Below are positions 48,542 to 63,354 of a DNA stretch of 64,000 bases, piece by piece. Every line of letters begins with the position of its first letter. Position 1 is the stretch's first letter. The notes beneath the pieces are model-generated. The model ran no database searches. It was not told where the DNA came from and worked only from the letters and a program-made list of their open reading frames with translations. The translations under genes were made by a program, and so were the position numbers. Source of the stretch: an uncultured Flavobacteriaceae bacterium (GTDB lineage: Bacteria; Bacteroidota; Bacteroidia; Flavobacteriales; Flavobacteriaceae); contig CANMFO010000002.1 of NCBI GenBank assembly GCA_947497245.1, positions 868,001 to 932,000 of the forward strand. The letters are read 5' to 3'.

Positions 48542-49288
48542 TTAGGTTATTTTCAAGAACTTGTTGAGCGCTTCCAACTTTCGTTTGGATACTGGAATGT
48601 AATTCCCATTTTGGAGCTCCAGATAGTTGCCCGCGGCCTTGTCGATGTGCTTTACATGGACGATGTTCACTATATAGGAATGATGCGGCCTGATGAACAG
48701 GTTGGGGTCGAGTAAATTGGCAAAAGATCCTAGATTTCGGCTTGATAATTTGGTCTCGCCGTTGCTCAGTAGAAAATTGGTGTAACGTCCTTCTGCCTTC
48801 AGGTAGAGAATATTTTTCTTGTTCACCAGTTCCACCCTGTCCTTTGAAGGAAGCGCCAGGATCTGTATATCATCTTCAACGGGCCCCAAGGGCATATGGC
48901 CGGCCCCGCGCCCATGTATGGATACTTTCTGTTTGGCCCTGTTGATAGCAACCAAGAGTTCTTTCAATTCCAAGGGTTTTAATAAATAGGCGATTACCCC
49001 AAGGGAGATGGCCCTAAGGGCATATCTTTCCGTTTTTGTGGTAATGATGAAGCTACAATTTTCACGACACCGTTCAATAATTTGAAATCCACAACCACGC
49101 TTTAGCGCAATATCCAAAAACACGATATCGGGCTTCAGCCTATGCATTTGGGATTTGGCATGCACCGCATTTTGGGCGCTTCCCAAAATCGCAACCTCTG
49201 GAAAGTAGTTTTTTAGGAGGGACAAGAGCCTTCCGAGGGCCATTGGGTCGTGTTCTACGATATAGGCCCGTAGTTTTGGGGGTGTCAT
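48542..49288 (-). CDS. LytTR-family response regulator, paralogue A
   Basis: 248 residues. The receiver domain (about 5-125) has the phospho-acceptor candidate Asp59 in IVFLDIALKRGCGFQII and Lys in YLLKPLELKEL, but the acidic pair after strand 1 is VEHDP instead of the usual DD. The C-terminal LytTR DNA-binding domain (about 150-245) shows YLKAEGRYTNFLLSNGE and IRPHHSYIVNIVHVKHIDKAAGNYLEL. Its closest relative in the window is the gene at 60753. A TACCTTTG -7-like element lies at 49327-49320. Confidence 0.93.
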   Translation of the reverse strand: MTPPKLRAYIVEHDPMALGRLLSLLKNYFPEVAILGSAQNAVHAKSQMHRLKPDIVFLDIALKRGCGFQIIERCRENCSFIITTKTERYALRAISLGVIAYLLKPLELKELLVAINRAKQKVSIHGRGAGHMPLGPVEDDIQILALPSKDRVELVNKKNILYLKAEGRYTNFLLSNGETKLSSRNLGSFANLLDPNLFIRPHHSYIVNIVHVKHIDKAAGNYLELQNGNYIPVSKRKLEALNKFLKIT

Positions 49289-49403: not shown

Positions 49404-50054
49404 TTAAAGTTCCAGAATGGTCTTTTTGTTGGTCAAGGCCCAATTGGTCAGGGTATTGGTACCGCTCTCCAGGGCCAATTTGGCGATAATATTGCTCCGG
49501 TGTTTCTCCACGGTCCTTACGGAAACGCTCAGCTTATCGGCAATGGTATTGGTGGAGGCCTGTTTGGCTATGAGTTTTAGAATGGCCCGTTCGGAAGGAG
49601 TGAGCAAGTACAACTTTTTCAGATCTTGACTGGCATTTTCCAGCGCACGGGTACCGAAGGACGAACTGAAATACACTTCACCTTTGAGTACCGCCCCAAT
49701 GCAACGTTCTATTTCAAAAAAAGGATCTTCCTTTAGCAGATAACCATGGATATGCAACGCTTTGGCATGGGTCACATACTCCAACCTTTTGTGGAACGAA
49801 AGCACAATGAATTTTGTTGACACCCCTTTTTCCCTGGCCATCCTTATCACTTCAAACCCTGTTAAAAGAGGCATATCTATGTCCAAAAGGGCCAGCGTGG
49901 GACGTTGGGTCAGGATAAGTTCCAGGGCCCTCATTCCGTCAGCCGCCTGGCCGACAACACGGTAGTTTTTGGCCGTCAGTTCCTCGTAGAGCCCCTTCAA
50001 CAACATGGGGTGGTCATCGGCAATTACCAGGGTGATGTTTGGCCTATCCTTCAT
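49404..50054 (-). CDS. NarL-type LuxR response regulator
   Basis: 216 residues. The receiver domain has the acidic pair IADDHPMLLK and phospho-acceptor Asp58 in ALLDIDMPLLTG. The GerE/LuxR HTH (about 150-205) includes LTPSERAILKLIAKQASTNTIADKLSVSVRTVEKHRSNI. It overlaps the histidine kinase gene by 11 bp on the same strand, so they are a cognate pair. The next gene on the same strand, LytTR-A, starts 115 bp further on. Confidence 0.95.
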   Translation of the reverse strand: MKDRPNITLVIADDHPMLLKGLYEELTAKNYRVVGQAADGMRALELILTQRPTLALLDIDMPLLTGFEVIRMAREKGVSTKFIVLSFHKRLEYVTHAKALHIHGYLLKEDPFFEIERCIGAVLKGEVYFSSSFGTRALENASQDLKKLYLLTPSERAILKLIAKQASTNTIADKLSVSVRTVEKHRSNIIAKLALESGTNTLTNWALTNKKTILEL

Positions 50055-52137
50055 TTTGGGCAGGTATCGTTAAAGCTATCGTTGTTCCTTTGGAATGGTC
50101 GCTTTCCACACGGAACTTCGATCGTATTATTTTGGCACGTTCCAAAAGCGTCCGCATTCCCAGGCTGGTACTTTGCCTGATCTTTTCTGCAAAATCGAAC
50201 CCCTTGCCATCGTCGGTGATGGCTACTTCAATGGTATCCCCTTTACATTGGATCAGCACGGAGGCTGCTTTGGCCCCGGAATGCTTTACCAGATTATTTA
50301 TGGCCTCCTGGACAATGCGGTACAGATGCAGCGAAGTATCCTTGTCCAACGCCCAGTCGATATCCTCTATTTCATGGGTGAACAAGATATCCGTGTGGGC
50401 GTCCACTTCGTCGACCATGGAAGCTATGGCCTTGGTAGCGCCCAAATTTTCCAGATCGGCCGGATATAGGCCCCTGGAAATGGACCGCAATTTTTCTAGC
50501 GCACTTTCTGCAAGGGACACGGTATCGCCATTTGCCAACTTCCTGATTTCTTTGGTCAACAGTATCAACTTTTGGCCCACGCTGTCGTGCAATTCACGCG
50601 AAACATGGGTGTACTGATCTTCCCGGTTTTTAATGAGGTGCTGTGAGAATTCCGTCTGTAATTTTCTCTTTTTTCGATTGAAATTCCGTGAATAGAGCAA
50701 AATAACGATAGAAAAGGAGGCCGCCAAGCCCAATCCGCCAAATAAGATCCACTGGGTCTTCAGTTTATTTTTGGTGTCCAGCAGGGCTATTTCTATATTT
50801 TGGGCCTTGATCTTGGAATCCTGTTTTTCCGTTTCGTACAAGGTTTGGTAATACGACAAGGCGTTTATCTTTTGAACACTACTGATGGAATCCTTGTGGT
50901 TCATATACGCCATATAATGGGTATAGGAAAGGGCCGTATCGCCCAAGACGTTGTATAGCTCGGCCAAAAGCCTGTTCGCATCATACGCCATTTCAAATTC
51001 ACCGGTACGGGTTCCGTATTCCAAGATCCATTTCGCGTCTCCCAGGGCTTTGGTGTACGCTCCCTTGGCCAAATGGTAGTTGGCAAGGGCTTCACGATAT
51101 AACCATTCGTAAGGGACGGGCCTTTGCAAGGCGAGCCCCTGCTGTACGGTCCTGAACATATGATCGGCCCGTACCATACTATCGTTCTGCGCATAGGCCT
51201 TCAACAGACCATAGGCAAGTATCGGGGCAAAGCTCTGATCGAGTTCCGGGTCGAGCATAAGTGTATAGGCTTCGGTTAGGGAAGCGATGCGTTCCTTTTG
51301 CCTGTCCATTTTGTCAAAATCACGGGAAGCATTGTACAAAAGGGGGATTAGGTGGTTGTAATCGTGCCTCGCCCTGATTATGGCCATAATTTCGTCCCGT
51401 CCTTTTTTGGCTTCTTTGAAAAAACCATTTTGACTGTAGAGGACGGATAGGGTGTTCCAAGCGGTCAATAGATTTGTGGTGTCCCGGGCACGCCCAAATA
51501 TTTGGGCACTCTCGGACAATAGCTGGGAAGCTCGGGCAAATTTGCCAAGGGAGGTGTAGGCAGTAGCCTTGTAGGTCCTGGCCAAAGCGAATAAAATTGA
51601 GTCCTGTCCTTTTAAGGCAAAGGCCTCCGCTGCGTCATAAATGGGAATGGCGGCGGCCAGTTCCCCGGAGAAAAAGTGGCTATCTGCCCCATTGGTGTAT
51701 AGCTGGGCAAACAACCGATCGTCGTCCAAAACGATATTTCGCTCCTGAAAATGCCTGAACACTTCAAGGCCCTCTTGTGCCCTTTGCGCCCGGTTGTTCA
51801 GATAGAATATTAGGTTTGAGATCTGTACCAAGGCCATTTCCGTGGAATCCAGTTCAAAGGCCAGATCAATGGTCTTTCGGGCAATGGAGTCATAGTGGAA
51901 TTCGGTCGTGTTCCGGATTTGCCCCAAAAGACTGTCCAGCAGCACAAGCTGGTCGCTTTTTTTTTGTGATTGCCCGATTTTTCGTTTTAGCGCTTTGACG
52001 GAGGCTTCCAGGTCGGACTCCTGTCCGAACAAGCTCAAACTGACAAAACACAGGCAAAAAAGGAGGAATAGCTTTTTAAGGGAACCAAAAAAAACTACAA
52101 AGGGGTGCATCCAATCATTTGTTTCCAAAAAACTCAT
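50044..52137 (-). CDS. TPR-containing sensor histidine kinase (HisKA_3 type)
   Basis: 697 residues from the ATG at 52137; a TTG two codons earlier is possible. The N-terminal signal or anchor is VVFFGSLKKLFLLFCLCFVSLSLFG. About 400 residues of helical TPR-like repeats follow, then a transmembrane helix (ILFGGLGLAASFSIVILLY) and a coiled segment. The H-box YTHVSRELHDSVGQKLILL contains His517, and the HATPase has TDDGKGFDFAEKI and GMRTLLERAKII. It is the partner of the NarL-type regulator. The sensing domain is probably periplasmic. Confidence 0.92.
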   Translation of the reverse strand: MSFLETNDWMHPFVVFFGSLKKLFLLFCLCFVSLSLFGQESDLEASVKALKRKIGQSQKKSDQLVLLDSLLGQIRNTTEFHYDSIARKTIDLAFELDSTEMALVQISNLIFYLNNRAQRAQEGLEVFRHFQERNIVLDDDRLFAQLYTNGADSHFFSGELAAAIPIYDAAEAFALKGQDSILFALARTYKATAYTSLGKFARASQLLSESAQIFGRARDTTNLLTAWNTLSVLYSQNGFFKEAKKGRDEIMAIIRARHDYNHLIPLLYNASRDFDKMDRQKERIASLTEAYTLMLDPELDQSFAPILAYGLLKAYAQNDSMVRADHMFRTVQQGLALQRPVPYEWLYREALANYHLAKGAYTKALGDAKWILEYGTRTGEFEMAYDANRLLAELYNVLGDTALSYTHYMAYMNHKDSISSVQKINALSYYQTLYETEKQDSKIKAQNIEIALLDTKNKLKTQWILFGGLGLAASFSIVILLYSRNFNRKKRKLQTEFSQHLIKNREDQYTHVSRELHDSVGQKLILLTKEIRKLANGDTVSLAESALEKLRSISRGLYPADLENLGATKAIASMVDEVDAHTDILFTHEIEDIDWALDKDTSLHLYRIVQEAINNLVKHSGAKAASVLIQCKGDTIEVAITDDGKGFDFAEKIRQSTSLGMRTLLERAKIIRSKFRVESDHSKGTTIALTIPAQNEG

Positions 52138-52315
52138 GATCAAGGGCGTTTAAAGTAGGCCGTACCCCGTGGGATTCGCTATTTGGCAGCTATTTCAAAA
52201 GTATAGCGGATTCCGTAGTACAAAACCTAGGGTGAAGGTACAAGAAATTATTCGAAGTGTGGGCCGCTGCACTAGGGTTTGGTACGATATAAACGTGCCG
52301 AATTCCGTCGATTTT

Positions 52316-52347
52316 ACCATTTATGACGATATAGCCCCGTTTATTAC
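52316..52347 (+). promoter_or_regulatory. Direct-repeat regulatory site A (20-bp period)
   Basis: ACCATTTATGAC at 52316-52327 and CCCGTTTATTAC at 52336-52347 start exactly 20 bp apart. This is one of five such sites between 52.3 and 61.7 kb. It lies 204 bp upstream of the 70-aa gene, and TTTAAT begins 21 bp after the second half-site. It sits in the 414-bp gap between the histidine kinase and that gene; the rest of the gap shows no gene. Confidence 0.5.
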
Positions 52348-52551
52348 TTGGGTTTTTCTTTTCAACCCTTTAATTAAGAGGTTTGTACTCGGGGGGAAAG
52401 GTATTGGCCCTGATCCAAGGTGGCGTGGGCTTGTCCGGAATGACCCTGTGCTGACGCCAAGGGCTTGGAAATAGGGCCATATAGGCAATGGCCAACGATA
52501 GCGTTGGGGAAGAGAAGCTAAAATAAAGTATAACCACATAATTTATGGGAT

Positions 52552-52764
52552 ATGAAAAATGATAGATATAGGTTTTACCTCAGGGACGTACTGGGCCTGA
52601 TCAAAGAAAGGACCGCAGTGTTGAAAAAAGATGCCAGCAAAGATGGGTTTTCCAAGGGAATGGAGTGTGGGTACAATGATGTACTGGACCTGTTCGAGAG
52701 CCAGGCAATAACTTATGAAATTGACCTGAAAGCCTTGGAATACGATGATTTTGGGCTTTCCTAA
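52552..52764 (+). CDS. Small acidic protein of unknown function (70 aa)
   Basis: 70 residues, soluble and mixed-charge (MKNDRYRFYLRDVLGLIKER, then KKDASKDGFSKGMECGYNDVLDLFESQAITYEIDLKALEYDDF). It looks like two helices with an acidic tail. I recognise no family. It stands downstream of regulatory site A and upstream of the HU-like gene by 133 bp. Confidence 0.6.
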   Translation: MKNDRYRFYLRDVLGLIKERTAVLKKDASKDGFSKGMECGYNDVLDLFESQAITYEIDLKALEYDDFGLS

Positions 52765-52897
52765 AAAAGGCACCGAACCCTTATCCTTGCAGCCTACGAC
52801 CGGATTTTTACCTCGGCCTATGGCTCCATCGGTTTATGGGCAATGACATGGAACGGTCCGGGGATTCCCAGAAGGGCACTTTAAAACAAATGGAATC

Positions 52898-53599
52898 ATG
52901 AACATACTGTATTATTTGCAAAACCTACCGAACGGTCCGGAAAAAGGACATAGGACGGGCAGGGTGCGGGCAAGGGGATCGCTCGATGAAAGGAGTATAT
53001 TGGACAGAATGGTCAGTAGGGGCACGGGTATCGGTCGGGGCGATATGCTGGCCATCCTGGAACTCTTTACCCAAGAGATCGCGGACGCCCTTGCGGACGG
53101 CTGGGCGGTAAATACTCGCCTTGCCCGATACCGACCGGATATCAAAGGGTTGTTTACCAGTACCACGGATCCGTTCGATCGGAGACGGCACCATTTCCGG
53201 GCGGTGTTGAGCGAGGGCCAGGAGCTGAAAAGAATAATGCGCGAAGCCACCGGGGAACGCATCAACGTACCCGCTCCGGTTCCCCATCTGATTCAATACA
53301 TGGATCACGGGAGCCATATGCCCGATGGACCACTTACCCCCGGCGGAACGGGAGAGTTGACCGGCCAGGGATTGAAATACGATGGGGCCAATGCCATGGA
53401 AGGCCTCTTCCTTATCCATGAGGCCGATAGCGAGTTCATCAAAATACGAAGCGTTTCGGTGGTTACCGAGGGCCGCTTGGTGTTCAAAGTGCCATCGCAC
53501 CTTGCCCCCGGGGAGTATATCCTGTGCATGCGAAGGAGCTATGCCAACGGGGCCAACCTTCGTGCCGGCAGACTGCACACTACCCTTACCGTGGGCTGA
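52898..53599 (+). CDS. HU-like DNA-binding protein with DUF4469 domain
   Basis: 233 residues. The N-terminal half (about 1-115) has the beta-rich IHF/HU-like DNA-binding fold seen in Bacteroidota (RGSLDERSILDRMVSRGTGIGRGDMLAILELFTQEIADALADGWAVNT). The C-terminal half carries the DUF4469 Ig-like module (LFLIHEADSEFIKIRSVSVVTEGRLVFKVP, YILCMRRSYANGANLRAGRLHTTL). It may bind DNA or a structured surface. It is followed by an mreB paralogue 200 bp downstream. Confidence 0.85.
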   Translation: MNILYYLQNLPNGPEKGHRTGRVRARGSLDERSILDRMVSRGTGIGRGDMLAILELFTQEIADALADGWAVNTRLARYRPDIKGLFTSTTDPFDRRRHHFRAVLSEGQELKRIMREATGERINVPAPVPHLIQYMDHGSHMPDGPLTPGGTGELTGQGLKYDGANAMEGLFLIHEADSEFIKIRSVSVVTEGRLVFKVPSHLAPGEYILCMRRSYANGANLRAGRLHTTLTVG

Positions 53600-53681
53600 C
53601 CTACCAACCGGCGGGCCGTTGATTTGGACAAATTTTGAAATAGGATCCCGCATTGAACGCGCTGGCCCATGTTCCATAGGT

Positions 53682-53713
53682 TCCATCCATTCCCGTATAT
53701 GCCCGTTTATTAC
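53682..53713 (+). promoter_or_regulatory. Direct-repeat regulatory site E before mreB
   Basis: TCCATCCATTCC at 53682-53693 and CCCGTTTATTAC at 53702-53713 start 20 bp apart. The second half-site is identical to that of site A; the first is a weaker match. It ends 86 bp before the mreB start. The TTTAA that follows sites A, B and C is absent. Confidence 0.4.
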
Positions 53714-53799
53714 ATGGCTTTTGAATCCCGGTCCCAAAGAGGATATTTTTATCAATGGAATACAAGATGATTCGACTACAAACAACCAAACTGTGAAAA

Positions 53800-54828
53800 A
53801 TGAGTTTTTTTGATTTCATGATCGAGGAAATAGCCATCGACCTAGGTACGGCGAACACACTGATCATGTACAACGGAAAAGTAGTGGTTGACAGCCCTTC
53901 CATAGTCGCTCGGGACCAAGTATCGGGCAAGATCATCGCGATTGGCAAAGAGGCCCGGACGATGCTGGGAAAGACCCATGGCAACATCAGCACGATAAGA
54001 CCCCTAAAAGATGGGGTAATTGCGGACTTTGATGCTTCTGAAAAGATGATCAAAATACTTATAAAGAACATTCCCGAACTGAGAAAAAGATGGTTCCCGC
54101 CCGCATTGCGAATGGTCATTTGCATTCCCTCGGGTATTACCGGGGTGGAAATGCGCGCGGTCAAGGAATCTGCGGAACGGGTCAATGGCAAGGAAGTTTA
54201 TCTGATCCATGAGCCTATGGCAGCGGCTATGGGTATCGGATTGGATGTGATGCGGCCCAAAGGTCATATGATCGTGGACATAGGCGGAGGTACTACGGAA
54301 ATTGCCGTCATCGCCCTTGGCGGAATCGTCTGTGATAAATCCGTTAAGATAGCGGGTGATGTTTTTACCAATGACATCATCTATTATATGCGTACGCAGC
54401 ACAACCTGTACATCGGGGAGAGAACTGCAGAAAAGGTAAAAATGGAGATTGGTTCCGCAATTGATGATTTACGCGTGCCACTAATTGAAAAAATGGTCCA
54501 TGGCAGGGATCTGTTGACCGGTAAACCAAAACAGGTACAGGTTTCCCACCGTGAAATGACCGTGGCACTGGAAAAATCCATCAGCAGAATAGAGGATGGA
54601 ATCATGGAAATCCTCTCAAAGACCCCTCCGGAACTGGCCGCGGATATCTACAACACGGGCATTTATATGGCTGGGGGCGGTTCCATGCTCCGCGGTCTGG
54701 ATGAACGATTTTCCCGGAAAACAGATTTGCCCGTATTTGTGGATGAAGATCCCTTGAGGGCCGTGATACGGGGAACGGGTATCGCCTTGAAAAATATGGG
54801 GCGGTACAAAAATGTCCTGATCAGCTGA
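53800..54828 (+). CDS. mreB: MreB paralogue (actin-like rod-shape protein)
   Basis: 342 residues, full length for MreB. Phosphate 1 motif AIDLGTANTLIMYN, phosphate 2 VDIGGGTTEIAVIALGGIV and adenosine motif GIYMAGGGSMLRGLDERF are intact, and IRPLKDGVIADFDA and CIPSGIT are conserved. The normal flavobacterial order mreB-mreC-mreD-mrdA-rodA is absent: a methyltransferase follows. It is therefore likely a second, solitary copy with a special role, unless the genome has lost the standard locus. Confidence 0.9.
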   Translation: MSFFDFMIEEIAIDLGTANTLIMYNGKVVVDSPSIVARDQVSGKIIAIGKEARTMLGKTHGNISTIRPLKDGVIADFDASEKMIKILIKNIPELRKRWFPPALRMVICIPSGITGVEMRAVKESAERVNGKEVYLIHEPMAAAMGIGLDVMRPKGHMIVDIGGGTTEIAVIALGGIVCDKSVKIAGDVFTNDIIYYMRTQHNLYIGERTAEKVKMEIGSAIDDLRVPLIEKMVHGRDLLTGKPKQVQVSHREMTVALEKSISRIEDGIMEILSKTPPELAADIYNTGIYMAGGGSMLRGLDERFSRKTDLPVFVDEDPLRAVIRGTGIALKNMGRYKNVLIS

Positions 54829-54918
54829 ACACGGCATCGGAAAAGTACGGAATGGAATACTTCACTCTATAATAATGAAGTCCAATCTTGCAACGGATAA
54901 CCTATTGAAAAGACATAA

Positions 54919-55680
54919 ATGAACAAACCGCATTTTGTAAAAGCATACGACTCCCAGAGCAAGGCCTATCGCAAGGCTTTCAAGGTTTTCCTGGAACATA
55001 CCGATCAGAAAGTGAATCTCTTGGAATGGTTGGAGAACTTTCTATCTGCCCTTCCCCGCAGGCAACAGTTCATTGACGCAGGTGCCGGAACCGGTCAGCT
55101 TACATCGTGGGTCGCCCACTACTTCGAATCGACCGTTGCCATAGAGCCCAGTACATTTTTACGCAGGGAGTTCCGGAAGAACTTCCCGGATTGTCCGTTG
55201 TTATCGGGTTTTATAACCGAGGCCAGGCCACCGGCCGCCGATATGGTACTCTGTTCGCACGTGTTCTACTACATAACCCCCGCCCGATGGATGATCAACC
55301 TGGAAGCACTTGTTTCCTGGCTAAAACCGGGAGGGGTGGCGCTGGTGATCTTACAGAACGGACAAACAGATTGTAATCGGATGATCGACCATTTTCTGGG
55401 GAAACACCTGGACCTGATGCTGTTGGGCGACCGGTTTCAAAAAAAATGTAAAAAAGATTTCTCGGTAAAGCTCGGTACCGTCAAGGCCCACATCACCCTT
55501 CCCGATCTGGATGCCACCTATTTGGTGGCGGAGTTTATGCTCAATCTCCGTCCCATGGAAAATCCACCGAGCCGCAAAGAATTGGAAGCCTATATTTTAA
55601 AAAACTTTGCCGCCCCCCAAGGCGGTTACCGTTTTTCCTGCCACCAAGACATTTTGCAAATCCATCGCGCGCTATTGTAG
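54919..55680 (+). CDS. Class I SAM-dependent methyltransferase
   Basis: 253 residues. SAM motif I is FIDAGAGTGQLTSWVAHYF, followed by VAIEPSTFLRREFRKNFP and ADMVLCSHVFYYI (motif II/III). A Lys-rich helical segment (GDRFQKKCKKDFSVKLG) follows. The substrate is unknown. It lies 90 bp after mreB and may be co-transcribed. Confidence 0.87.
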   Translation: MNKPHFVKAYDSQSKAYRKAFKVFLEHTDQKVNLLEWLENFLSALPRRQQFIDAGAGTGQLTSWVAHYFESTVAIEPSTFLRREFRKNFPDCPLLSGFITEARPPAADMVLCSHVFYYITPARWMINLEALVSWLKPGGVALVILQNGQTDCNRMIDHFLGKHLDLMLLGDRFQKKCKKDFSVKLGTVKAHITLPDLDATYLVAEFMLNLRPMENPPSRKELEAYILKNFAAPQGGYRFSCHQDILQIHRALL

Positions 55681-55929
55681 GCTTTTTGGATCTGGGTTTC
55701 CATTCCCAATATGGGTTTGATCTCAAAAAAATCATTTCATGGCCCGGTTTTTACGTACAGTCCCATTGTTGGAATCCAAGGCTTTTGCAACACCCATTTT
55801 AAACAACCTTATACCAACCTGGAATCCGCCTTAGGGGTTGTCCCTTTGTATTTTTATGGATTTTCCTTTTCGGGGGTGTAACCAAAATAAAAATAAGGTG
55901 TCTACAAAGTACCATTAAAAACAGCGATT

Positions 55930-56907
55930 ATGGACCACACTTTAAAGCGTTGCCTTTCCCTTTTTCTACTTGCCTCCACCCCTTTTATGTCCCATGCCCA
56001 GTTGGTGGATCGTTTTAAGTCCCATACATCATACCTGGCGTCCGATGAACTGAAGGGACGGGGAACCGGAAGTGAAGGGATCAAACGCGCTGCGGAATAT
56101 GTGGAAATGAAGTTTAAATCGATCGGGCTTGATCCCGGGGTGGACGGATCCTATTACCAGCCGTTCCATATTGCGGGGTATTCGGAAAGTGAGGCAAATA
56201 TTATCGGGGTCATCCGAGCGGCCGTGCCAACGGATCGTTCTTTGGTGTTCACCGCCCACTACGATGCTCTGGGAGCCACAATATCGAACGGAGAAGGCGA
56301 TACCATTCACAATGGCGCTCAGGACAATGCCGTGGGGGTGGCCGCATTGATAGAGATGGCACGGTTGTTCATGCACGGGGAACCTCCACTACAGAACCTG
56401 GTCTTTGTAGCCACCGCCGGTGAGGAAGTGGGCCAGTATGGGAGTCTTTTCTATGTGGAAAACCCTGTTTTTCCCCTTACCGAAATCACCATTTGTCTAA
56501 ATTTTGATGGATTCAATGTCACCGGACCGAGGGAGGACTACTTTGTAATGCCCCGCCAGGGCGTTGACTTTATCGACGAGATCCGATCCATTGCAAGATC
56601 TACGGGATGGGTTTATGACCCACCGGAATGGATAGATGGAATGGACACGAATTTTGACACGGCTTCCTTTCTGGCAAAAGGCGTACCGGCCCTTACCCTC
56701 TGGACCGGTACCCGGATGATCGGGGGCAAGAAGGCCGGGCCCATCCCATTTGGAAGCATACACACCCCTGATGATGAGATCAACCCCTACTGGAACTGGG
56801 AGGGCGTCGAGGCACATTTAAAATTGTACAAGCGCATAGCGGACTTTTTTCTTGAACACCCTGAAGGCATAACGGTTACCGACCCAGAACGATTTGTTCG
56901 TCGATGA
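55930..56907 (+). CDS. Secreted M28-family zinc aminopeptidase
   Basis: 325 residues. A signal peptide ends at SHAQ. Zinc ligands are visible: His110 and Asp112 in TAHYDA, Asp132 in GAQDNAVG, the Glu165-Glu166 pair in TAGEEVGQYGS and Asp193 in LNFDGFN, with a final His in GSIHTPDDEINP. It is a di-zinc aminopeptidase or related amidohydrolase, periplasmic or secreted. The 249-bp gap upstream holds no gene. Confidence 0.92.
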   Translation: MDHTLKRCLSLFLLASTPFMSHAQLVDRFKSHTSYLASDELKGRGTGSEGIKRAAEYVEMKFKSIGLDPGVDGSYYQPFHIAGYSESEANIIGVIRAAVPTDRSLVFTAHYDALGATISNGEGDTIHNGAQDNAVGVAALIEMARLFMHGEPPLQNLVFVATAGEEVGQYGSLFYVENPVFPLTEITICLNFDGFNVTGPREDYFVMPRQGVDFIDEIRSIARSTGWVYDPPEWIDGMDTNFDTASFLAKGVPALTLWTGTRMIGGKKAGPIPFGSIHTPDDEINPYWNWEGVEAHLKLYKRIADFFLEHPEGITVTDPERFVRR

Positions 56908-57040
56908 GCGTTCCAAATGCGGGCCAGTGCTGGAGCGGTGTTTGGCGTTGTTCTAAGCGGAGCGAGGTTACCCATGGCCGATTCGGTCTTTCCTCCTATA
57001 CCATCGACCTTTAATTCTATCCACCAAAAGCATCCATTTT

Positions 57041-57072
57041 ACCACTTATTCGTCATAGCTACCAGTTACTAC
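57041..57072 (+). promoter_or_regulatory. Direct-repeat regulatory site D
   Basis: ACCACTTATTCG at 57041-57052 and ACCAGTTACTAC at 57061-57072, start to start 20 bp. It lies 77 bp upstream of the 40-aa membrane protein at 57150, in a region between it and the M28 gene that has no other gene. Confidence 0.5.
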
Positions 57073-57149
57073 TTTGGTTTAGGTTTTATTGTGGAAAAGT
57101 GTTTAGTTGCTCTTTCTTAAAGTTCAATTTAAACGAAAGGAGGGCAGTT

Positions 57150-57272
57150 ATGTTAGAAGATATCGAATTCAGTGTGGACCTTATCGAGCGGAGGCTATGG
57201 GCATTTATAACCGGTTTTCTTTTTTTCTTGGCCATAGTTATTCTATTGCTTGGCAGAAGGAAAAAACGATGA
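57150..57272 (+). CDS. 40-aa single-pass membrane protein
   Basis: MLEDIEFSVDLIERRLW is followed by the hydrophobic helix FITGFLFFLAIVILLLG and a tail of basic residues (RRKKR). The ATG has a strong Shine-Dalgarno, AGGAGGG at 57138-57144, which is rare in this window and supports translation. Regulatory site D lies 77 bp upstream. Confidence 0.65.
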   Translation: MLEDIEFSVDLIERRLWAFITGFLFFLAIVILLLGRRKKR

Positions 57273-57574
57273 TTGCCCAAGGAAGTCCGGACACTCTTCA
57301 AAAGAGGCCTGTCGGGACCGGGACAAAGCTCTCGCAAACCCAAAACATTACCAATTGGACTTCATCGTTTGTCTCGCCTTGTCCATTTTTTCAATAGACC
57401 CATAAACCACAGGCGATGTACCTTGTTCTTGGTCTTTCCATTAGGGAATATGCTTGCCAAGGGAGGGTGGACGCAAGCCTTATCCACAAGTACCATCTAT
57501 GGAGGATCTGTGGAGAAAAGCCTACGTAATTCGGTTTTTGAAGGTCCACAAAACATCAAAAACCCATTATTTTT

Positions 57575-57606
57575 CCCACTTATTACGAAATACTCCCACT
57601 TATTAC
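57575..57606 (+). promoter_or_regulatory. Direct-repeat regulatory site B (perfect repeat)
   Basis: CCCACTTATTAC occurs twice without mismatch at 57575-57586 and 57595-57606, start to start 20 bp. TTTAAT begins 21 bp after the second copy, as at site A. It lies 180 bp upstream of the ATG at 57787. The other bases between 57273 and 57786 show no supported gene. Confidence 0.6.
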
Positions 57607-57786
57607 ACCAGTTTTTCTTTCCGACGGTTTAATCGTGAACTTGCCCACTAAAATGTGCCAAACAGAGATCAATGGACCAACATCTGCAAATTTCGGAAAG
57701 ACCGGAACGGCAGAAGTGTCTTTGATCCCTCCATCGCGGGAATTCCAAAAAATCCTGGGCATAGGCACCATCATTATACAATTGTT

Positions 57787-59709
57787 ATGCGACCGAGCAT
57801 GGATATTAAAATTTTAGAACAAGATCTACAGCGTATCAGGGGCAAGATTGCCTTTAACATGAACCAATTGTGGTTGCTCCATGACCCGACCGATCAAAAA
57901 TTGTCCATAAATGGGGTCTATACCGGCACTTTGGTCCAGATCGAGGAACTGTTAGGGGCAGATGCGGTTGTCCACGACTGGTACAAGGACGCCTTTCATG
58001 ATGTCCACGACAGGAAAACAATTGAGGAGCTAAAGCTGTATATGGGACACTACAAAGACTTTGAAGGGGTCGATGCATCGGAGCAGGACCACGGTATTCC
58101 GTCAATCGATGACCTTCCCACTGTCGGTCAGTACAAAGATTATATGAATCTGGAACGTCAACTTTTGGAGTTCCTTAAATCAAAGACCGGGCATGTGCAT
58201 GTGCCCATGGATCTGGATTGCAGGAATCTTGACGAGTTAAAAAAATGGTACGATACGCTGATCGGTCTTTACGACAAGGTGGACACTTTTCAGATCCATT
58301 TTACCGTAGACATCATAGCGGACTATCTCCATGGAAACATCGTTTTTTGGGAAAAGAAACTATTGGACTCCATGCAGATCATAAATACCCTCGAGGAGGA
58401 AGATCTCATGCGGATAGACCGCGATACGGATATTGTCCATCGCACAGATATCGCCCTATCCCTGCTGATGCAGGACGCCGAATGGCTGCTGGAGTATGTC
58501 AAAAAGGGCAACCCTCTTTCCGGTCCCCGCTTCATCCTGAAAAAACCGTTTTTATCAAAAGCGGCGAAAAGAAGGCTGTACGTCATTGATATGATTTGCG
58601 TTGGCGGTGGCCCCTGCAATACCGAGAAACGGCTGGGCTCCCTGATAGACGACCTGAAGTTGCGGTTGGATTTCAAGAAGATGGCCCAAATATGGGATAC
58701 GGATATATCGGAGGTTGCCCTGCACGTGCATCGGTACATTTTCTTTAAAAAGCTCCTTCTTGACGTAATCGACCTTATTGCTCTTATCGAGGAGGCGGAA
58801 AAGGTCCGTTCAAAGATACAGGAGATTTCCGACCTGAAAGTGCGCCCCTTCGACAAAAAAGGGGCACAGCACCAAAAGAACGGAATAGTGCGCGACCAGT
58901 TATTGGAAAAGTACTTTCGACTGCGAAAGAGGTTTAAAAGGACCGAAGCCCACTTGAGCGGTCTAAAAGGACTGCATCCCATAAAACAAAGACTTTTGAA
59001 AGATCTTACCGAATTGAACGGCAAAAATTACAGTGCTTCCATAGAGCTGCTGACCATGTTCTGGGAAAAGAAGACCGATCATAGGGAGTTCCAAAAACTA
59101 AGGGCCGGGCTGGGCAAGGTATTTCCCAAGCTGTTGCAATCGATTGCCCAAGGGATTTTTACCGTATCGGATATGCCAAAACTGGAAAAGGCGCTGCGTT
59201 TCCGACATACGCGCAATAGGTTCAAAAAGCTTACGGACCCGGATTACGGCAAGGAGCTGTTTGCCGAGCTACGGGAACTTGGACATCAGGAAGCGCACCT
59301 CCTGTTGGAAATTGCCCGGCGAAAGATCCATAGCGAGGGGGACAAAGATGGATGCGGTAAGTATTTAGGGCCTGCAGGCCATACCGGCGGGCATCCCAAG
59401 GCGGTATCCCATTCCGATTCTTCCCCGACCGATGGTACTGCACAGGGTATTGACCGAATCGCCGTTGGTGGCGAGGTAGATCGACCGGCTTCCGATCCGA
59501 TGTTTCTTTCCTTACTGGCCAAGAACCTGGTGGTTTTTGGGGAAGGGCCCCGGACCCGGTCAGGCCACGCGGACACGGATACCTTGAACAGCCTGGAACG
59601 CTACCTCAAGGAACTTTACTTGGATAAAGGTGCCCCCACATATGGGCTTTTGGACATTATAAAACCGTATTGTGATCAAAGTGCCATTGATCTAAGGGAA
59701 CAGGAATAG
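57787..59709 (+). CDS. 640-residue protein of unknown family
   Basis: The frame opens at 57655; the ATG at 57787 (or 57799) fits better because the first 44 residues look non-coding. The protein is helical and soluble, with no transmembrane segment and no Walker A or B. Distinctive pieces are KTIEELKLYMGHYKDFEGVD, CVGGGPCNTEKRLGSLIDDL and KVFPKLLQSIAQGIFTVSDM. The middle faintly resembles inter-domain helices of large SF1-type helicases, but without ATPase motifs this is only speculation. Site B lies 180 bp upstream. Confidence 0.8.
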   Translation: MRPSMDIKILEQDLQRIRGKIAFNMNQLWLLHDPTDQKLSINGVYTGTLVQIEELLGADAVVHDWYKDAFHDVHDRKTIEELKLYMGHYKDFEGVDASEQDHGIPSIDDLPTVGQYKDYMNLERQLLEFLKSKTGHVHVPMDLDCRNLDELKKWYDTLIGLYDKVDTFQIHFTVDIIADYLHGNIVFWEKKLLDSMQIINTLEEEDLMRIDRDTDIVHRTDIALSLLMQDAEWLLEYVKKGNPLSGPRFILKKPFLSKAAKRRLYVIDMICVGGGPCNTEKRLGSLIDDLKLRLDFKKMAQIWDTDISEVALHVHRYIFFKKLLLDVIDLIALIEEAEKVRSKIQEISDLKVRPFDKKGAQHQKNGIVRDQLLEKYFRLRKRFKRTEAHLSGLKGLHPIKQRLLKDLTELNGKNYSASIELLTMFWEKKTDHREFQKLRAGLGKVFPKLLQSIAQGIFTVSDMPKLEKALRFRHTRNRFKKLTDPDYGKELFAELRELGHQEAHLLLEIARRKIHSEGDKDGCGKYLGPAGHTGGHPKAVSHSDSSPTDGTAQGIDRIAVGGEVDRPASDPMFLSLLAKNLVVFGEGPRTRSGHADTDTLNSLERYLKELYLDKGAPTYGLLDIIKPYCDQSAIDLREQE

Positions 59710-59845
59710 GGCATGGTTGGGGGCGACCGCTAGGGTAAAAGGCCTATGTGGGGCCTGGAATTGGGAGTTCAGAAGCCCGCTCAAGAAATGGGTAATGTGA
59801 CTCACAAGGGCGGAGCCGTACCAAAAATCATCTTTTTTATACCAA

Positions 59846-59971
59846 ATGGAAACATTTTTTGGCACACTGATCACCTTGGTCGCGATCAATATACTCTTGC
59901 TGTTCCTTAGTACCAAAACAAAGGACGGGCCGGTCAAAAAGACCAAGGACAAAATGGCCAAAAAACAATGA
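59846..59971 (+). CDS. 41-aa single-pass membrane protein
   Basis: METFFGTLITLVAINILLLFLS forms one membrane helix, and the tail TKTKDGPVKKTKDKMAKKQ is strongly basic. It lies 136 bp after the 640-aa gene and 120 bp before the antiterminator. No Shine-Dalgarno or direct-repeat site is evident, but the topology matches the other two tiny membrane proteins. Confidence 0.55.
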   Translation: METFFGTLITLVAINILLLFLSTKTKDGPVKKTKDKMAKKQ

Positions 59972-60091
59972 ACGTTTTCTATTTGTGCGTCCCCAACCAG
60001 GCCGGTGCAGTATGAGCCCATAGATTGCCCCCGGTAGCATTGAGCTACAAAAACCCCCGATTGTTCTTCACCTGCCCAATTGAAGGGGGCA

Positions 60092-60607
60092 ATGAAGGAA
60101 ATGGTTGATTTGCCCATAAATAAAACTCTTGATATGCCCTGGTACGTCCTCTACACAAAACCCAGAACCGAAATGAAGGTCAGTGAATATTTAAGGAATA
60201 TGGAGATCATGGTCTATTGTCCCCTTATCACAGAAACACGGCAATGGAGCGATAGAAAAAAGAAAGTGACCACACCACTGTTCAGATCCTTGGTGTTCGT
60301 GCAACTGGAACCCAAGGAGCGGAGCAGGGTTTTTGGGGTTCCCGGGGTGCTCAACTATCTTTTTTGGTTGGGAAAACCTGCAACGGTCAGCGATATGGAA
60401 ATCAAGGTGATAAAGGACTGGAACAGGAACGGGGAAAAGGAACGGATGAAAGTGGAACAACTTTCACCAGGGGACCAGGTGGTGATTTCACGTGGACCGT
60501 TCAAAAACCAGAAGGCACTCATACGGCACATTGGTAAAGGGCGCTTTCGCCTGCTTCTACCAAGTTTGGGATGTGTAGTGGTCATCAGTGCCAAAGAGGT
60601 CGTCTAG
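60092..60607 (+). CDS. UpxY/NusG-like transcription antiterminator
   Basis: 171 residues from the ATG at 60092; an ATG at 60134 (MPWYVLYTKPRTEMKV) is an equally good start because UpxY proteins often begin with that NGN motif. The NGN domain (MPWYVLYTKPRTEMKVSEYL to LVFVQLEPKERS) is followed by a C-terminal KOW domain (GDQVVISRGPFKNQKALIRHIGKGRFRLLL). UpxY-type proteins usually start polysaccharide loci and let RNA polymerase read through terminators. A terminator-like hairpin follows directly. Confidence 0.9.
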   Translation: MKEMVDLPINKTLDMPWYVLYTKPRTEMKVSEYLRNMEIMVYCPLITETRQWSDRKKKVTTPLFRSLVFVQLEPKERSRVFGVPGVLNYLFWLGKPATVSDMEIKVIKDWNRNGEKERMKVEQLSPGDQVVISRGPFKNQKALIRHIGKGRFRLLLPSLGCVVVISAKEVV

Positions 60608-60671
60608 GGTATGGACCAATGCGACGACCTTCCATGCACCGATGTTTAGACGGCAAGAAGGGTTTTTTACC

Positions 60672-60700
60672 AGAGACCACCAAAGGTCATCTCTTTTTTT
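60672..60700 (+). terminator. Terminator-like hairpin after the antiterminator gene
   Basis: AGAGACC (60672-60678) pairs with GGTCATCTCT (60685-60694) with one bulged A, followed by a run of six or seven T. It lies between the UpxY-like gene and LytTR-B, so it could end the transcript or be a read-through control point. Confidence 0.5.
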
Positions 60701-60752
60701 GACTTCCCGATTTTGGTTCCGGTTAACGAATAATAAAATTGACATAACTAGG

Positions 60753-61481
60753 ATGGTAGCACAACTAAAAGCTTTTATTGTAGAAAATGGAATTACGGGG
60801 GGAGAGGGCCTCTCTGTCATTTTAAAGAAGTATTTCCCGGAAATTGACGTTTTGGGGCTGGCCGACAATGTAGAAGCTGCCCTGGGCCGCATAGCCAAGT
60901 TAAAGCCCGACATCATTTTTCTGGACATTGAACTAAAAAAAGGTTGCGGGTTCCAGATCATTGAAAACCTAAGTGCCAAAAGCAAGTATTTTTTTATCAT
61001 TACATCACATGTGGAAAAGTATGCGCTCAAGGCCATATCCTATGGTGTGACCGATTATTTGTTGAAGCCCTTCCAATTGGAGGACATCGTACTGGCCCTG
61101 AACAAGGTAAAGAAGAAAACGGAGGCCAGATCGAACAAAGTGGATGATATTGAAATCGTTGCATTGCCCTCGGGGAACAAGGTAGAACTCATAAAAAAGG
61201 AAGACATCATCTATTTGAAGGCGGAAGGCCGGTATACCCGTTTTTTCTTGAAGGGGGACATCAACTTAATAGCCTGTAGGAACATTGGGGAGTATGAGAA
61301 ACTTTTGGATCCCAAAATGTTCTTTCGGATTCACAATTCCTTTATGGTGAACATTACCCAGGCAAAGAACATCAACAAGGCCGCAGGCAACTATCTGGAA
61401 CTGAAAGCGGCCAATTGCGCTCTGTTGCCAATAGCCAAAAGAAAATATGATCTGCTGAAAAAATTTTTAAACATAAAGTAG
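60753..61481 (+). CDS. LytTR-family response regulator, paralogue B
   Basis: 242 residues from the ATG at 60753 (MVAQLKAFIVENGITGGEGL); the frame is open to 60588 but that part is inside the terminator region. The receiver keeps Asp58 in IIFLDIELKKGCGFQII and Lys in YLLKPFQLEDI, but the pocket after strand 1 is VENGIT with a single acid. LytTR domain: YLKAEGRYTRFFLKGDI, RIHNSFMVNITQAKNINKAAGNYLEL. The motif-level match to the gene at 48542 shows they are paralogues. It lies beside regulatory site C. Confidence 0.92.
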   Translation: MVAQLKAFIVENGITGGEGLSVILKKYFPEIDVLGLADNVEAALGRIAKLKPDIIFLDIELKKGCGFQIIENLSAKSKYFFIITSHVEKYALKAISYGVTDYLLKPFQLEDIVLALNKVKKKTEARSNKVDDIEIVALPSGNKVELIKKEDIIYLKAEGRYTRFFLKGDINLIACRNIGEYEKLLDPKMFFRIHNSFMVNITQAKNINKAAGNYLELKAANCALLPIAKRKYDLLKKFLNIK

Positions 61482-61637
61482 GGCAGGCCGAAAAGCTGGG
61501 ACTTCCACAACGCAGTCTTGGAATACGTAGGGTCCTTGGAGATGAATCCTTGGACAAGTGCACCGTACGGCATGGAAATACATAGGGCCCACTTTGGCAA
61601 TACGCCCTATAAAGGAGACCAATAAAGGTGTTTTCGT

Positions 61638-61669
61638 ACCACTTATACCGTATTCTTACCGACTATTAC
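61638..61669 (+). promoter_or_regulatory. Direct-repeat regulatory site C
   Basis: ACCACTTATACC at 61638-61649 and ACCGACTATTAC at 61658-61669, start to start 20 bp. TTTAA begins 21 bp after the second half-site, as at A and B. It lies 281 bp upstream of the 33-aa ORF. The rest of the 469-bp gap from 61482 to 61950 holds no gene I can support. Confidence 0.5.
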
Positions 61670-61950: not shown

Positions 61951-62052
61951 ATGACGGCACTTGTTTTAATATTGTCCTTCCTGTTCCTATTGGTGGTCCT
62001 TGTTTTTCTAATGAGAGACCCTTCCAATCCGAACAGACATCGGGATATTTGA
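61951..62052 (+). CDS. 33-aa single-pass membrane protein
   Basis: MTALVLILSFLFLLVVLVFLM is a single membrane helix, followed by RDPSNPNRHRDI. It precedes the probable receiver-like gene by 23 bp and may be co-transcribed with it. There is no clear Shine-Dalgarno. Together with the ORFs at 57150 and 59846 it makes a set of three tiny membrane proteins. Confidence 0.5.
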   Translation: MTALVLILSFLFLLVVLVFLMRDPSNPNRHRDI

Positions 62053-62075: not shown

Positions 62076-62480
62076 ATGACCAGCAACAAATTTGAAAAAA
62101 GAACGGTCCTGTTCTATGACAGTTGCAAGGCTCATGGGGCATACGGTAAAAAAGTGATGCAATCGAAAGGAACGTATGACATGGTGGTCCACAACATTGA
62201 AAGGTTGGAAGATGCGGATCAGTACCTGCCCGCACTTACCGCTGTCGTACTGTTCATATACAACAGGAGGGCCCTGTTTCAACTGTTCCCGTTCCTGAAT
62301 AGGAAGATCAAGCTCATCCTATGTACAAATTCCTACATCATGGGATGGCTAAGCCGTGTTTTTCAAAGCGACATCACCATGTTGGATATCGCAACCCCAA
62401 AAACGGAGCTTTTTTACCAAATCGAAAGGAATTTGTTCCAATCTGACAGGGGTCATACGGAGAGCGATGTCCTGGGATAG
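62076..62480 (+). CDS. Probable degenerate receiver-like protein
   Basis: 134 residues from the ATG at 62076; an open frame extends to 61887 but has non-coding composition. The pattern of five alternating strands and helices (TVLFYDS, YDMVVHNI, AVVLFIYN, IKLILCTN, ITMLDIATPK then FYQIERNLF) looks like a response-regulator receiver. The strand 3 Asp is missing (LFIYN) and a Pro-Lys similar to the receiver KP motif is kept. This assignment is inference; an unrelated Rossmann-like fold is possible. Confidence 0.55.
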   Translation: MTSNKFEKRTVLFYDSCKAHGAYGKKVMQSKGTYDMVVHNIERLEDADQYLPALTAVVLFIYNRRALFQLFPFLNRKIKLILCTNSYIMGWLSRVFQSDITMLDIATPKTELFYQIERNLFQSDRGHTESDVLG

Positions 62481-62562: not shown

Positions 62563-63354
62563 ATGAAGGTATTCCTCGGCTTTTTGATAGTGCTCATCCC
62601 GACGACCAAATTCATATTTGTCGAAGTGCCTCGACAGGAAAGAGAGGCCTTGCTGGACCTCTACAATGCCACCCAAGGTGCGGGTTGGAACAAAACCTGG
62701 GATTTGCAGGCCCCTGTTTCCAGTTGGTACGGTATAAAAGTGGCCGGCGGACATGTTGTGGAAATCGACCTATTCCGGAACAAGTTGGTGGGATCCATTC
62801 CCAGGAGCATCAAAAAACTAAAATATCTGGAATACCTTGACCTTTCGTTCAACGTGATCAGTGGATCACTGCCACACCACCTTATGGAGCTGGATCGCTT
62901 AAAGACCCTAAAGTTGGAGATGAACGGGATGACCGGGACCCTTCCGAGGAATATAGGAAGGTTGAAAAACCTGGAGGAACTAACGATATTCAACAACTTC
63001 ATATCCGGTGACATTCCACCTAGCATGGGTGAAATGGTATGTTTAAGAGTGTTGAACCTTTCGAGCAACAAGCTCAGCGGACAGATTCCCAAAACCTTGG
63101 GAAACCTTACCAAATTGGAAAGTTTGGGACTCTTTGACAATATGCTGAGCGGTCGCTTACCTCCGGAACTGGGAAACTTGGTCCGATTACAGGAACTGGC
63201 ACTGGCCAATAACCGATTGGAGGGTGAAATACCGATAGAATTGGGTCGATTGACCAATCTTCGGGTATTTATCATCCAGAACAACAGGTTTGATTCCCTT
63301 GACAATCTAAAACAAATTGACCGTGGCCGATTTCTAATATTTGAGCATGATTAA
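62563..63354 (+). CDS. Plant-type leucine-rich repeat protein
   Basis: 263 residues. An N-terminal hydrophobic segment (VFLGFLIVLIPTTKFIFV) may be a signal or anchor, followed by an LRRNT-like stretch (EREALLDLYNATQGAGWNKTW) and about six repeats of the form LPxxIGRLKNLEELTIFNN, with the IP/LP plant-type consensus (NKLSGQIPKTLGNL, NRLEGEIPIELGRL). It probably binds a protein or glycan outside the cell. No catalytic domain is present. Confidence 0.85.
   Translation: MKVFLGFLIVLIPTTKFIFVEVPRQEREALLDLYNATQGAGWNKTWDLQAPVSSWYGIKVAGGHVVEIDLFRNKLVGSIPRSIKKLKYLEYLDLSFNVISGSLPHHLMELDRLKTLKLEMNGMTGTLPRNIGRLKNLEELTIFNNFISGDIPPSMGEMVCLRVLNLSSNKLSGQIPKTLGNLTKLESLGLFDNMLSGRLPPELGNLVRLQELALANNRLEGEIPIELGRLTNLRVFIIQNNRFDSLDNLKQIDRGRFLIFEHD

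Follow-up and report, generated by a model that had tools for sequence, protein, structure and literature searches.

Direct-repeat pairs before about 30 promoters of a Flavobacteriaceae genome are probable operators of a LytTR-family regulon

Operators of LytTR-family regulators are generally described as repeats of 9-11 nt separated by spacers of 11-13 nt, without a common consensus (PMC4847170; this and the other papers named here are cited from parts of their text), and published examples read ACCACTTAT-12 bp-ACCGCTTAT or ACCACTTAT-11 bp-GCCACTTAT, located mostly 10 bp before the -35 element (PMC6193735). The 64-kb stretch of DNA analysed here (the window), which belongs to the 5.25-Mb genome (G000) of an uncultured Flavobacteriaceae bacterium, contains five pairs of direct repeats resembling such operators. 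Judged from sequence, these pairs are probably operators of a LytTR-family transcription activator with a regulon of about 30 promoters, the regulator most likely being the LytTR protein encoded at window position 60753, its paralog encoded at 48542, or both. The half-site type, the spacer and the position relative to the promoter support the LytTR-operator interpretation made in the preliminary description of the window, as does the co-occurrence of the sites with relatives of 60753 across 397 genomes of the family. The analogy drawn there with the period of known LytTR repeats applies to the kind of repeat and less well to the spacing: published pairs usually have a 21-bp period (12-bp spacer), whereas here the period is 20 bp (11-bp spacer).

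All five pairs were found where they had been reported, on the + strand in gaps preceding + strand genes and with an exact 20-bp start-to-start period (Table 1). The consensus proposed for them, MCCRNTTATTAC, fits four of the ten half-sites exactly and the other six with mismatches (in order, 1, 0, 4, 0, 2, 1, 0, 0, 2 and 1). The first half of pair 53682, TCCATCCATTCC, is poor with its four mismatches, while its second half is perfect; this pair is supported by the profile described below (E 5.8e-12, as a training-set member) and by a site at a similar distance before the orthologous mreB gene of another genus. When up to three mismatches were allowed, the originally proposed pattern matched four of the five window pairs and nothing in 100 shuffles.

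The window-derived pattern, again with up to three mismatches, gave 22 matches in the whole genome (four in the window and 18 outside, with one overlapping pair among the 22), compared with none for the reversed pattern; a random genome-wide frequency, named beforehand as a refuting outcome, was thus not what we observed. A first profile built from 22 sites (21 pattern matches plus 53682) gave 30 places with E-values up to 7.7e-4, and a second profile of 80 columns, built from these 30 sites, recovered 30 sites at E 0.001 or better, which are its own training set, so that the E-values are no independent proof. The profile searches scored 150, 78 or 11 first-look candidates, and weak sites may have been missed. 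Since 25 of the 30 sites are located outside the window, a purely local regulon was rejected, and the earlier wording that the repeats extend across an accessory locus is too narrow; what had been called a dedicated regulon, probably of LytTR type, comprises about 30 sites genome-wide. Eight of them are found within 26 kb of C2 (920-946 kb), around the right end of the window, in a stretch that holds LytTR 60753. We consider it likely, on these sequence grounds, that the sites form a dispersed and patchy LytTR regulon centred on the window.

The spacing of the half-sites is constant. With the pattern CCCANNTATN{4,20}CCRNNTRTTAC, whose inner gap was left free over 17 lengths, all 14 matches had a single gap length and the control had no match. 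In the loci of G000 and of a second genome with many sites (G158, see below), 53 over-threshold pairs had a period of 20, compared with 11 pairs for the next best period and eight for period 21, in loci that were chosen for their sites and a few of which overlap. Three half-sites occur at one place, C1:998840. The spacer between the 9-bp half-sites is 11 bp, and three of the 30 sites of G158 read as 12 bp by eye. The sites present two direct repeats of about 9 bp of LytTR-like sequence, with a fixed spacer within the range of 11-13 bp.

Alignment of the 30 sites gives CCC[AG]C[CT]TATT, a TATA-rich middle unit, CCC[AG]N[TA]T[AG]TTAC and then ATGGGTTTTTCTTT. The sequence that follows the repeats resembles the -33/-7 promoter of Bacteroidota, TTTG/TAnnTTTG (PMC6847099), with 20 columns between the two elements: columns 39 to 41 are each T in 29 or 30 of the 30 sites, column 64 is A in 23, and the TT of the -7 box (columns 67-68) is present in 30/30 sites of G000 and 29/30 of G158, both sets having been selected with or for the profile. 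The repeats end just before the predicted -33 element, which follows the second 9-mer after nine columns. Twenty-seven of the 30 sites are outside open reading frames (ORFs) of at least 150 aa, vs 19% of points placed at random in these loci (81% inside); the three inside ORFs include the mreB site, which falls in an ORF antisense to real genes. The median distance from a site to the first plausible start, assigned mechanically and not taken from annotation, is 113 bp. The last eight letters of 16 of the 60 half-sites are identical to one of 15 published LytTR half-sites, hand-picked from the tables of PMC6193735.

The products encoded behind the sites include a TonB-dependent receptor, an N-acylglucosamine 2-epimerase, MreB, small membrane proteins and an Ig-rich surface protein, the last with an RHS-type protein further down the same gene run. 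Three related HU-type proteins are each encoded directly behind a site (L059 2430, L061 2454 and L070 14885), and a fourth relative is the HU-type protein at 52898 in the window. Four small homologous proteins are also encoded near a site and an RHS-type gene at G000:C4:390629-392620 (L068, L069).

A relaxed pattern, covering 23 of the 30 sites, was used to scan 84,980 species genomes (G000 possibly left out) and returned 18 stretches in seven assemblies, all Bacteroidota by title. Seven of the 18 stretches belong to CANLWN01 (G061, identical with G158), from another genus of the same family, which has 30 profile matches with E no higher than 0.002. This genome carries an ortholog of 60753 (66% identical) after an UpxY gene (71%), in a locus with sites behind the LytTR gene, another upstream of a gene related to the 640-aa gene of the window, and the receiver-like gene downstream; it also has the cluster of kinase, LuxR and LytTR genes (73, 85 and 64% identical). 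As in G000, its sites precede mreB, an HU gene and the 640-aa-gene relative, and for 11 of the 30 sites of G000 (10 genes behind) the gene matches one behind a G158 site at E 1e-4. A third genome (G249) encodes three LytTRs of the same clade and has a site followed by a 640-like gene, further ORFs, a LytTR gene, another site and the receiver-like gene; the scores of the sites are weak (E 2.6e-5 and 0.012, the latter for the counterpart of pair 61638). In a Winogradskyella record, a site match lies between two LytTR genes.

Across the 397 genomes of the family, site-profile matches were present in 19 and relatives of LytTR 60753 (E 1e-40) in 16, and eight genomes had both (p 5.6e-8, in a Fisher test that treats related genomes as independent); with G000 excluded, seven were shared of 18 and 15 (p 5.8e-7). 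A cut of E 1e-5, which gives co-occurrence in 5/5 genomes without G000, was chosen after the data were seen. Of 22 loci with a LytTR of this kind outside G000 and G158, counted by hand in a search of 470 kb, nine had a profile match with an E-value of at most 0.05, including the three of G249.

Proteins 60753 and 48542 both carry REC and LytTR domains above cut-off and belong to a clade of seven LytTRs (tree support 100/99) in a tree that included 26 of the other 35 LytTRs of the genome; the solved-structure sequences near 60753 match mainly its receiver domain. By sequence neither receiver would qualify as phosphorylatable, the Asp and Lys being present in both and the acidic pair reduced to VEN (60753) and VEH (48542). 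In 7/7 clade members this pair is E-N, E-K, E-H or E-P and not D-D or E-D, and in three of the seven, all among the five kin from two other genera, the phospho-acceptor Asp is replaced by Glu. The degenerate acidic pair and the Glu acceptors suggest that control may not be by phosphorylation.

In the mechanism that we propose, two LytTR monomers would occupy the same helix face, each on one of two 9-bp half-sites that lie 20 bp apart and whose end precedes the -33 element by about 9 bp, and would aid RNA polymerase in starting transcription, with predicted activation and not repression of the adjoining promoter. The roughly 30 promoters would constitute one regulon for outer-membrane and surface proteins, HU-type proteins, an extra MreB and small membrane proteins, under control of LytTR 60753 and/or its paralog 48542. 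Site 57575 may drive an operon of the 640-aa gene, the METFF membrane protein gene, the UpxY gene and LytTR 60753, and because the latter gene is downstream of this site in the same direction, 60753 probably feeds back on its own expression. It is speculation that the 41-aa membrane protein and the 134-aa receiver-like protein are candidates for control of the regulator. A wider scenario, which we put forward as a tentative and rather doubtful one, is that LytTR master regulators with dead receivers act independently of phosphorylation, in positive feedback under micro-membrane proteins and a pseudo-receiver, and have moved laterally from genus to genus within the Flavobacteriaceae along with cassettes of surface genes that carry the operator, some 30 promoters being governed by one switch.

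Several observations weigh against the main reading, in which the pairs are LytTR operators with 60753 and/or 48542 as the regulator. Besides the treatment of related genomes as independent, the family scans scored just 11 (site) and seven (LytTR) candidates per genome; 11 of the 19 genomes with site matches, nine of them with a single match, are without the LytTR at E 1e-40; eight of the 16 genomes with a 60753-type LytTR show no site match; and 13 of the 22 LytTR loci mentioned above have no profile match at E 0.05. No relative of 60753 was found at E 1e-25 in four of the seven genomes of the wide scan (G060, G062, G063 and G066, with 6, 5, 10 and 1 matches), and the relative in G064 is only 29% identical. 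None of nine other genomes of the same genus has a comparable set of sites, and one of them has a single match (E 6.3e-4). As to the sites themselves, the -7 box agrees with TAnnTTTG only in part, its first T and last G being weak, and for 44 of the 60 half-sites, including the most frequent forms here, CCCACCTAT and CCCGAATAT, there is no match among the 15 published ones. The own genome encodes 37 LytTR domains, and LytTRs of unrelated bacteria use similar half-sites (PMC6193735), so that another LytTR may bind.

This last point leads to an alternative that we hold to be rather unlikely: the sites, although LytTR operators, would serve chiefly some other member of the 37 LytTRs, or several of them in common, with 60753 and 48542 as just one user. 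It would account for the site-bearing genomes that lack a close relative of 60753; against it, the site matches track 60753 relatives across the family, sites adjoin genes of clade LytTRs in G000, G158 and G249, and the 26 kb of C2 with eight of the sites include 60753 itself. In the fragmented metagenome-assembled genomes G060 and G063, site-like promoters (L214-L223), several of them before probably secreted proteins, were observed without a close 60753 relative and may there serve another LytTR. In G161 and G352 (L276, L277, L281), CCGTTTRTTAC-type half-sites were observed in tandem, two or three at a time in steps of about 20 bp, and some of these arrays precede secreted VGVGT-type proteins. 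Six of the nine same-genus genomes encode a LytTR at E 1e-30 (34-42% identical), and the best repeat scores in six same-genus loci around LytTR relatives (L288, L291-L295) range from 8.4 to 27.7, with L292 the highest; since four of the six exceed the maximum of 18.7 seen in 30 plain shuffles (three loci), local sites specific to these LytTRs may exist.

Binding of the sites by the LuxR/NarL-type regulator 49404 with its kinase is improbable in our view. The gene adjoins site 52316, G158 and G249 have retained it next to sites and LytTR genes, and its close homologs (E 1e-70, 21 genomes) occur in six of the 19 site genomes (p 1.8e-4); at E 1e-40, however, homologs are present in 169 of the 397 genomes and the link is weak (12 of 19, p 0.053), no gene of the fetched Winogradskyella locus has 49404 as its best match, and half-site and spacer are of the LytTR kind (PMC6193735). 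Protein 49404 was rejected as the likeliest binder because its co-occurrence with the sites is weaker than that of LytTR 60753.

Slightly less probable still is a reading in which the 32-bp element belongs, as a module, to mobile or repeated DNA and is no operator. The element is patchy within the genus, the flanks are shared in two site pairs (C1:855403 with 864729, and C2:609983 with 611958), and one site, C2:939367, is inside a block of about 10 kb just right of the window (G000:C2:933429-943144, L064) that is 97-98% identical to G158, a different genus. The flanks of most sites nevertheless differ from one another, the element has a fixed placement before promoter and gene, and before orthologous genes the site is kept while the upstream flanks are near background. 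For mreB in G000 and G158, 22 of 32 core positions are identical against 8 of the 40 bp upstream, the site ending 86 or 92 bp before the ATG; the epimerase gene, the 640-aa gene and HU b behave likewise. Such likeness of the cores shows the retention of a site, which need not be the one present in the ancestor. Chance similarity of AT-rich promoter regions is next to inconceivable for the set as a whole, in view of the reversed controls (0 vs 22 and 14 matches), and was rejected for it, though not for each weak member such as the first half of 53682 or pair 57041.

To return to the LytTR regulon, most matching stretches between the compared loci of G000 and G158, other than the 10-kb block, are 64-92% identical, which points to a probable recent horizontal transfer of that block. 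Together with the patchiness within the genus, this indicates that the predicted regulon is patchy and at least partly mobile.

Table 1. Putative operator pairs and genes of the window (window coordinates).
Feature	Position	Strand	Evidence or remark
Putative operator pair ACCATTTATGAC/CCCGTTTATTAC before 70-aa gene	52316..52347	+	Pattern; profile E 2.7e-15 (training set)
Putative operator pair before mreB	53682..53713	+	Profile; site at like distance before G158 mreB ortholog
Putative operator pair before 40-aa membrane protein, weakest of the five	57041..57072	+	Pattern; profile E 4.2e-5 (training set)
Perfect putative operator pair before 640-aa gene	57575..57606	+	Pattern; profile; counterpart before the gene's relative in G158 and G249
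Putative operator pair between LytTR gene and receiver-like gene	61638..61669	+	Pattern; profile; G158 counterpart
LytTR response regulator, best regulator candidate	60753..61481	+	Acidic pocket VEN (degenerate)
Second LytTR response regulator, same clade	48542..49288	-	50% identical to 60753; acidic pocket VEH
LuxR/NarL-type response regulator, rival candidate	49404..50054	-	
TPR histidine kinase, divergent from site 52316	50044..52143	-	HATPase_c; HisKA_3 just below cut-off
70-aa protein	52552..52764	+	Homolog adjoins UpxY-LytTR in G158
HU-type DNA-binding protein with DUF4469	52898..53599	+	
mreB	53800..54828	+	One of two full-length genome copies
40-aa small membrane protein behind site 57041	57150..57272	+	Membrane segment by eye
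640-aa protein	57787..59709	+	Scanned as 684-aa ORF
41-aa METFF membrane protein	59846..59971	+	Relative at same place in G158
UpxY-family NusG antiterminator, directly before LytTR gene	60080..60607	+	NCBIfam NF033644
33-aa membrane peptide ORF	61951..62052	+	Membrane segment by eye
134-aa stand-alone receiver-like protein	62076..62480	+	No Asp at acceptor place

Among the neighbouring genes, the UpxY protein scores 124.4 bits with its family model (cut-off 100), the TPR histidine kinase has relatives in G158 and G249, and the other full-length MreB copy is located at C3:552034. The 640-aa protein had no Pfam or NCBIfam match, and relatives behind a site are encoded in G158 (36% identity over 221 aa) and G249 (37% over about 220 aa). 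The likely acceptor place of the receiver-like protein is without Asp in 3/3 sequences, and its receiver-like fold is marginal: the single-sequence model has a pLDDT of 67, the best receiver match in Foldseek has E 5.7e-3, and no Foldseek match reached E 0.001, the top match being unrelated by title. The region 62563-63354 encodes a leucine-rich-repeat-like protein whose matches to NCBIfam effector models, far below cut-offs, probably reflect the repeats only. A known structured RNA was rejected as an explanation, only two tRNAs having been detected in the window.

An open-access literature search revealed no LytTR regulon or operator in Flavobacteria, within partial texts and with the broader Bacteroidetes literature sampled in part. 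The excerpts retrieved for LytTR with Flavobacteri and direct repeat dealt with other repeats, LytTR gene counts or mutations only, the papers listed for the motif letters looked unrelated by title and the start of the abstract, and no paper was found that links UpxY, or a pseudo-receiver, with LytTR. As far as this literature goes, a large dispersed LytTR regulon in Flavobacteriaceae, tied to this locus, would be new, the kind of operator being already known. A defined operator, about 30 promoters as its putative targets and two regulators as candidates make LytTR targets in Flavobacteriaceae directly testable. The link to mreB, HU-type proteins, the UpxY antiterminator and proteins of the surface hints at a single switch that governs both the cell surface and cell shape, by which two unusual LytTR regulators may turn on surface, cell-shape and DNA-packing genes together.

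Among known systems, the LRS-like operons of Bacteroides share with this locus the phylum Bacteroidota, the 11-bp spacer and a position of the repeats 11 bp before the promoter, but their repeats are of 11 bp and of other sequence, their LytTRs have transmembrane segments, and the excerpted description mentions no large regulon (PMC6193735). The VirR boxes of Clostridium perfringens are likewise direct repeats (CCAnTT) upstream of regulated genes, bound there by a LytTR, but have a 21-bp period, another phylum and other target genes (PMC4747519). PlnC and PlnD of Lactobacillus plantarum are, as here, two homologous LytTRs (59% identical there, 50% here), and both act on one set of tandem 9-bp repeats, although with a 12-bp spacer and in a bacteriocin locus (PMC2714321). 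The LytTR Regulatory Systems (HdrR and BrsR of Streptococcus mutans and the relatives listed with them) differ in that their regulators have a membrane-inhibitor partner, whereas here REC-LytTR proteins, about 30 dispersed sites and a Bacteroidota promoter are found (PMC6193735). The gene run of regulator 60753 contains small membrane proteins and a site, its regulator carrying a REC domain. The two kinds of system are alike in having direct repeats of the ACCACTTAT type, 9 bp long and located some 10 bp upstream of -35, with a spacer there of mostly 12 bp and in a minority 11 or 13 bp, compared with 11 bp here, and in a regulator operon, predicted here, that carries its own site (PMC6193735).

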